64,000 nucleotides of DNA from the NCBI RefSeq assembly GCF_021917145.1, contig NC_061065.1, forward strand, positions 11,529,412 to 11,593,411, in the 5' to 3' direction. Within the stretch, counting starts at the first letter, position 1; every line of letters begins with the position of its first letter. The position numbers and the translations under genes are program-made. This stretch comes from Hypomesus transpacificus. Its lineage: Eukaryota > Chordata > Actinopteri > Osmeriformes > Osmeridae. The notes beneath the pieces are model-generated. The model did not search any database, was not told the origin of the DNA, and was given only the letters and a program-made list of their open reading frames with translations. Shown here piece by piece: positions 51,178 through 53,732 of the stretch.

Positions 51178-53732
51178 ATCTCTCCACACACACACACACA
51201 CACACACACAGGATCTCTCCACACACTCACAGGGTCTCTCACACACACACACACACACTCACAGGGTCTCTCACACACACACACACTCACAGGGTCTCTC
51301 ACACACACACACACACACACTCACAGGGTCTCTCACACACACACACACTCACAGGGTCTCTCACACACACCCACAGGGTCTCTCACACACACACACAGGG
51401 TCTCTCACACACATTCATCTGTTCTCACATGCACACACACTTACAGACACGTGCACGTTCATGAACTCACTCTGCACACGGACACTACATCTCTGTCCAA
51501 AAAACTGAACTCATTTGTAAGCAATGAACCAGAAGTTTGTAAGGCCAGCGCTTCAGCCCCCGAGGACATACCCCTCCCCCCCCACACACACACACACATG
51601 TCCACCCCCTAACCAACATCCACACAAGTGCCCATGTTCACCATCCCCACCCCCCCACCCCCCGCAGGCGATGAGGAGTCACGAGGGCAACGAGGCCCAG
51701 GTGTGCTACTTCATCATCCAGCTGCTGCTCCTCAAACCCAACGACTTCAGGAACCGAGTCAGTGACTTTGTGAAGGAGAATGCCCCGGAACACTGGCTGC
51801 AGAGTGACTGGCACACCAAGCACATGACCTACCACAAGGTACAGCCGAAGCCAGTCATATGACAGCATGTCCAGGCTGTGGACTAATCATATGGACCAAT
51901 ACCATTACAGCATGTACAGGCTATGGACTAATGACATGGGCCAGTTATAACCCAGCATGACAATGGGATCATAGAGAGCGAGAGGAGAGAGAGATGGTAG
52001 AGAAAAGAAGAGAGAGGGTGGCAAAGAGAGCTAGAGGTTAGGCCGGTAAAGCGAAAGAAAGGGGGGGCGGGCTGGTAAATATAGAGGGGCGGAGGGAGAG
52101 AGAGAGAGGCAGAGAGAGAGTGAGGCCGAGAGAGAGAGAGGCAGAGAGAGAGAGAGTTTGTGGGAGGTCTAGCTGCTGGTGCTCCAGGAGCCAGTGTAGT
52201 AAATGTCAGATCTCCAGTCTGCTGTGCTCCCAGTTCACCTCTGGCCTGCTGGAGCAGCATGACATTTACACACCCTGCTGCAGCTCTACCTCTAACAGGC
52301 TGAGTGTGTGTGGCCCAGCACTCTCAAACACAGTGTTTCTGCCATGTATGGCAGTGTGTGTGTGTGTGCTGTACCCTTGTGTGTGTGTGTTTCTTCTAAC
52401 TGTGTGTGTGTGTTTGGTGGCGTGCAGAAGTACCCAGAGAAGCTGTACTTTGAGGGTCTGGCGGAGCAGGTGAGCCCTCCCATGCAGGTGCAGCCCCAGT
52501 ACCTGCCCATCTACTTTGGGAACGTGTGTCTGCGCTTCCTCCCCGTGTTCGACATCGTCATCCACCGCTTCCTGGAGCTGCTTCCTGTCTCCAAGTCCCT
52601 GGAGACCCTGCTGGACCACCTGGGAGGCCTCTACAAGTTCCACGGTGAGCAGGGCACACACCAGGAGGGGGTGGGAACGATACAGCATGCTGTACCACAG
52701 AGCAGTAGAGTCAGTCCTGTACAGTAGAGTCCAGTAAGTCTAATCCCTCTCCGTCTCTCTCTGTCTGTCTCCCCCCTCCTCTCCTCCCCCCCTCCCCTCC
52801 TCCCCCCCTCCCCTCCTCCCTCCCTCCCCTCCTCCCTCCCTCCCTCCCTCCCTCCCTCCCTCCCTCCCTCCCTCCCAGACCGTCCGGTCACCTACCTGTA
52901 CAACACGCTCCACTACTACGAGCGGCACCTGCGTGAGCGCACCAACCTGAAGAGGAAGCTGGTGCACGCCATCATGTCCTCCCTCAAGGACAACCGCACC
53001 CCCGGCTGGTGCCTGAGCGAGACCTACCTCAAGTGCGGCGTCAACCCCCGAGACGACAACGTCTGGATCCCCGACGACACGTACTACTGCAAGCTGATTG
53101 GACGGCTCGTCGACAATATCCTTCCCTCCCGGTCCACAGTAGAGTATAGAGAGTGAGATTGGTTTAGAGGTGGCCGCAAGGGGACGGTCGCGTTCTGACC
53201 GGTTGCACCGTTGACCAGCATTTCAGTTTGACTGTTTTACACCCTCCTTGCTGTCCCTTGTGTTTACCCTCCTTGACTCCTCCCACCCATGGCCGGCAAG
53301 TCACCTGGTCCGTTCCCCAACTGTGATTGGCGGTTCAACGAGTTCCCCAACCCGGCTGCTCACGCGCTCCATGTGACCTGCGTGGAGCTGATGGCGCTGG
53401 CCGTGCCGGGCAAGGACGTGGGCAACGCTCTGCTGGCTGTGGTCCTCAAGAGGTCAGAGGTCACTCAGTCCCAGACGCAAACATACATACAGAGACACAC
53501 ATGCAGTACATACACAGAAACACACACACATACACCCCATCTGGATGATTATTATCATTATCCTGTTCCTAACACCCACTGACTGGTCAGGCTCCTCTCT
53601 CTGTCAGAATACATCTTCTTACTTGGCAGCTCATGTGCTCCGTGTGTGTGTCTGTGTGTGGGTGACTGAATGTGTGTGAGGGCGTCTGTGCGTGGGTGCC
53701 TGTATGTGTGTGTGTGTGTGTACGTATGTATG

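Follow-up and report, generated by a model that had tools for sequence, protein, structure and literature searches.

Prediction of a U12-type AT-AC intron at a protein-defined junction of med23 in the fish Hypomesus transpacificus

In the minor spliceosome, U11 (and later U6atac) pairs with the donor, and U12 pairs with the branch site in such a way that the branch adenosine is left free. Consensus strings of the introns removed in this way, the U12-type introns, are RTATCCTT for the donor and TCCTTRAC or TTCCTTRAY for the branch site. As far as the available parts of the sources go, U12-type introns are described as having an optimal distance of 11–13 nt from branch to 3' splice site and no distinct polypyrimidine tract (PMC3584512), and as being biased against phase 0 (PMC7367187). 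In mouse, Med23 is described as a minor-intron gene with reproducible splicing defects, detected by RT-PCR, in the U11-null mouse limb (PMC13192996, a 2026 preprint available in part). Intron 23 of med23 from Hypomesus transpacificus, which we describe here, has in common with U12-type AT-AC introns the donor, the branch site, the termini and a non-zero phase, together with a short branch distance that lies at the edge of the described range. With mouse Med23 it shares the gene and the presence of a minor intron; the position and termini of the mouse intron are not stated in the accessible portion of the preprint (PMC13192996), but most likely the fish intron is its orthologue. This kind of intron is already known, and very probably so is the particular case. 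Searches of the literature on MED23/CRSP3 and minor splicing and on zebrafish minor splicing, a scope that leaves aside the U12 catalogues held in databases and supplements, turned up no mention of the fish intron.

The window that we analysed is a 64,000-nt stretch of the H. transpacificus genome, and it holds a med23 coding region (41125..55271, forward strand) that we built by hand from the sequence. The region comprises 29 coding exons and encodes 1,371 aa with a single stop at the end; residues 5-1369 of the product align to residues 1-1364 of MED23 (PDB 7emf_W; E-value 0), which amounts to a full-length match. When the MED23 protein was searched against the whole assembly (437 Mb in 376 contigs), all 27 matches fell inside the window, pointing to a single med23 locus at the sensitivity of that search. 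A search for MED23 relatives with readable introns returned 26 pattern-matching stretches in genome contigs and one in viral contigs, none of which was confirmed. The gene model contains 28 introns, 26 of them GT-AG, one GC-AG (intron 4, 42185-42316, forward strand) and one AT-AC.

Several other features of the window were observed along the way. Right where med23 exon 19 ends, a tandem array (49350-49694) comprises 11.5 copies of a 30-nt unit with 97% matches. This unit holds the last bases of the exon together with its GTAGATA donor, such that the 5' splice site occurs 11 times in tandem (10 exact copies and one with a single mismatch), and in the phase of exon 19 the use of any donor copy but the first would run straight into TAG. 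Downstream of med23, the open stretches at 55378-55770 and 59691-60116 have much of their translation in common (ASGGCRCTLTSDLERSLLFLQPQGLVWGVWSGVRLECL, with a GVWSG-like repeat), and a repeated element is therefore probably present twice. A Pfam Hairy_orange domain at 11997-12695 on the forward strand indicates a hairy/hey-like neighbour gene, and a Tissue_fac domain at 38677-39006 on the reverse strand belongs to what we take, from the family, to be a class II cytokine receptor gene. Screening the window with Rfam gave no RNA genes above the gathering scores.

The AT-AC intron is number 23 of the 28 (53116..53286, forward strand); it is 171 nt long and interrupts the reading frame in phase 1. 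Exon 23 (52879..53115, forward strand, 237 nt) ends with ...GRLVD and the first base of a threonine codon, and exon 24 (53287..53452, forward strand, 166 nt) supplies the second and third bases of that codon before continuing with MAGKSPG.... We scanned junctions with the last exon base at 53060-53199, the first exon base at 53200-53359 and an intron of at least 60 nt, a total of 20,570 donor/acceptor pairs. The conserved reading DDTYYCKLIGRLVDTMAGKSPGPFPNCDWR came from one pair only, 53116-53286, as an earlier note on this DNA had claimed when it called the junction the only one to yield LVDTMAGKSPG, and the same pair had the top protein score of the scan (225). Spliced across 53115/53287, the product reads ...GRLVDTMAGKSPG... 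and aligns without gaps with each of the three different MED23 sequences that the PDB search yielded. The termini at this protein-defined junction are AT-AC, the 3' splice site AC being located at 53285..53286 on the forward strand, where the acceptor CCAC ends.

Two nearby GT-AG pairs, 53139-53300 and 53109-53300, the best candidates of this type, also keep the frame, and if one of them were the true junction, the AT-AC motifs would be there by chance. With the first candidate pair, NILPSRST would take the place of TMAGK in a product of 1,374 aa, and with the second, VDTMAGK would be deleted to give 1,364 aa. Both would thus alter residues that do not vary among the three MED23 sequences from PDB, and their protein scores of 186 (the best of any GT-AG pair) and 173 fall short of the 225 obtained with the AT-AC pair. 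Frame is likewise kept if the donor at 53116 is joined to a different AC, either at 53277 or at 53304, with scores of 206 (second in the scan) and 178, respectively. However, the LVDTMAGK reading is lost with either acceptor, and the one at 53277 lies inside the branch site and would consume it, so that we consider this choice of acceptor extremely improbable.

The motifs themselves agree closely with the U12-type consensus. The 5' splice site ATATCCTT (53116..53123, forward strand) matches RTATCCTT at 8/8 positions, and the branch site TCCTTGAC (53270..53277, forward strand), recognized from its motif and from the predicted U12 duplex, places the branch adenosine at 53276, 10 nt before the end of the intron. 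Its core matches TCCTTRAC at 8/8 positions, and CTCCTTGAC matches TTCCTTRAY at 8/9. Among the remaining 27 med23 introns, no donor exceeds 6/8 against RTATCCTT and no branch site exceeds 7/9 against TTCCTTRAY. The earlier note had placed a U12-type AT-AC intron at exactly these coordinates, and its location proved correct to the base, with the donor, the acceptor CCAC and the branch site, 10 nt from the end, each found where the note had put them.

Taken singly, the strings are about as frequent in the window as expected by chance, with four RTATCCTT sites against 2.98 expected and five TCCTTRAC sites against 5.71 expected. The joint pattern ATATCCTT-N{135,155}-TCCTTRAC-N{5,15}-AC, on the other hand, has a single occurrence in the window and is absent from all 100 dinucleotide shuffles of it. 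In 20,000 dinucleotide shuffles of intron 23, the donor appeared at position 1 once and the branch site near the end 25 times, and the two never coincided, which argues against a chance agreement of the kind that a GT-AG junction would entail; we regard a GT-AG pair as a very improbable identity for the true junction. The case for the AT-AC junction is strong because the pattern sits exactly at the junction that the protein requires. We rejected a further U12 intron within the window, since the remaining RTATCCTT sites (15907 and 58693 on the reverse strand, 33565 on the forward strand) and TCCTTRAC sites (5371, 36462 and 62165 on the forward strand, 43581 on the reverse strand) do not form the joint pattern at the tested spacing, which is too short to cover longer introns such as one from 33565 to 36462 on the forward strand.

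At its 3' end the intron lies at the edge of the usual U12-type description. Ten nucleotides follow the branch adenosine (position -11 when numbering starts with -1 at the final base of the intron), a distance just below the U12-type optimum of 11–13 nt, although conventions may differ by one (PMC3584512, available in part). The stretch from -22 to -3 contains 17 pyrimidines out of 20, partly supplied by the branch site. This pyrimidine-rich end would suit removal by the major (U2) spliceosome, and AT-AC termini are not exclusive to U12-type introns according to the same partial source (PMC3584512). A U2-type AT-AC intron would, however, be expected to have a donor and a branch site unlike the U12 consensus, whereas intron 23 has 8/8 in both, and we hold excision by the major spliceosome to be highly unlikely. 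Phase 1, in turn, is consistent with the bias of U12-type introns against phase 0 in the accessible part of the report describing it (PMC7367187). Judged from the sequence, the segment 53116-53286 is very likely a working U12-type AT-AC intron.

An intron of this type calls for a host with a minor spliceosome. The H. transpacificus assembly contains genes for U11, U12 and U4atac: over the whole assembly there is one match to U12 (128.9 bits) and one to U11 (118.7 bits), both above the Rfam cut-off, and two matches to U4atac above the cut-off. PDCD7, the U11-59K protein, gave four matches within about 1.4 kb. For U6atac, Rfam model RF00619 gave no matches, with 46 of 24,394 candidates scored, a result that does not imply absence, and a 22-nt core of U6atac was not found in the assembly either exactly or with up to two mismatches. 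The missing U6atac may reflect a gap in the assembly, a divergent gene or the limit of the search.

Using the genome's own U12 RNA, we predicted a duplex with the branch site of nine pairs and -9.3 kcal/mol, in which only the branch adenosine is bulged inside the helix. Among 2,000 shuffled versions of the site, 112 attained the same energy, and within intron 23, 9 of the 160 12-mers, including the branch site itself, pair with U12 equally well or better. The predicted duplex energy therefore lends modest support to the branch site. The 5' end of U11 is predicted to form five pairs with the donor (-4.0 kcal/mol), a value that is uninformative in that 1,036 of 2,000 shuffles attained it.

Lastly, we examined the same pattern across the genome. 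The U12 AT-AC pattern gave 11 matches at 10 places, compared with 131 for the reversed control; the bare pattern is thus not enriched, and chance occurrences are possible in 437 Mb. The high count of the control is perhaps due to a repeat family. Still, at four of the 10 places the flanking coding exons, once joined, give a product that can be aligned across the junction with a solved protein, namely MED23, CRNKL1, TRAPPC2/sedlin and IPO5 (importin-5). The AT-AC introns of CRNKL1 (L008, contig C6), IPO5 (L014, contig C12) and TRAPPC2 (L015, contig C23) carry the full U12 pattern and thereby resemble that of med23 in the same genome, both in pattern and in an exon join that aligns through the junction, but reside in different genes. 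At a further place, L009, there is by eye a probable AT-AC intron if the acceptor is taken 4 nt earlier; the joined product had no matches in PDB, and we did not count it. For the remaining five of the 10 places, coding sequence was not demonstrated.

If intron 23 is removed as predicted, U11 and then U6atac would bind the donor ATATCCTT, and U12 would pair with TCCTTGAC and leave the branch adenosine 53276 unpaired. The exons would then be joined at 53115/53287, completing the threonine codon of LVD-T-MAGK. Loss of minor splicing is described as leading to exon skipping and the use of cryptic sites in the available part of one account (PMC8034651). In med23, such a loss would be expected either to leave intron 23 in the mRNA, bringing in an early stop, or to cause exons 23 and 24 to be skipped together, with a shift of the frame. 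Upon retention, an in-frame TGA is encountered at 53154..53156 (forward strand), the product ending ...LVDNILPSRSTVEYRE; since five exon junctions lie downstream of this stop, we would expect the cell to degrade the retained-intron mRNA. The joint skip of exons 23 and 24 removes 403 nt and, by computation, shifts the frame to a stop at codon 1016.

A different outcome would follow if the in-frame GT-AG decoys acted as a switch, with weak minor splicing giving rise, beside mRNA loss, to a near-full-length MED23 altered at VDTMAGK. We think this very improbable; if true, it would be grounded in the edge-of-range branch distance and in the two in-frame candidate GT-AG decoys.

Returning to the reading of intron 23 as an ordinary U12-type intron, the med23 case leaves knowledge of minor introns unchanged, and offers, from a fish, a clean, checkable example of an AT-AC intron in the gene for a Mediator subunit. 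A gene model restricted to GT-AG pairs would be forced into a wrong junction at this intron. By analogy with mouse Med23, as described in the accessible part of the preprint (PMC13192996), we infer that med23 of H. transpacificus would depend on the minor spliceosome, and the gene could serve as a reasonable reporter of minor-spliceosome activity.
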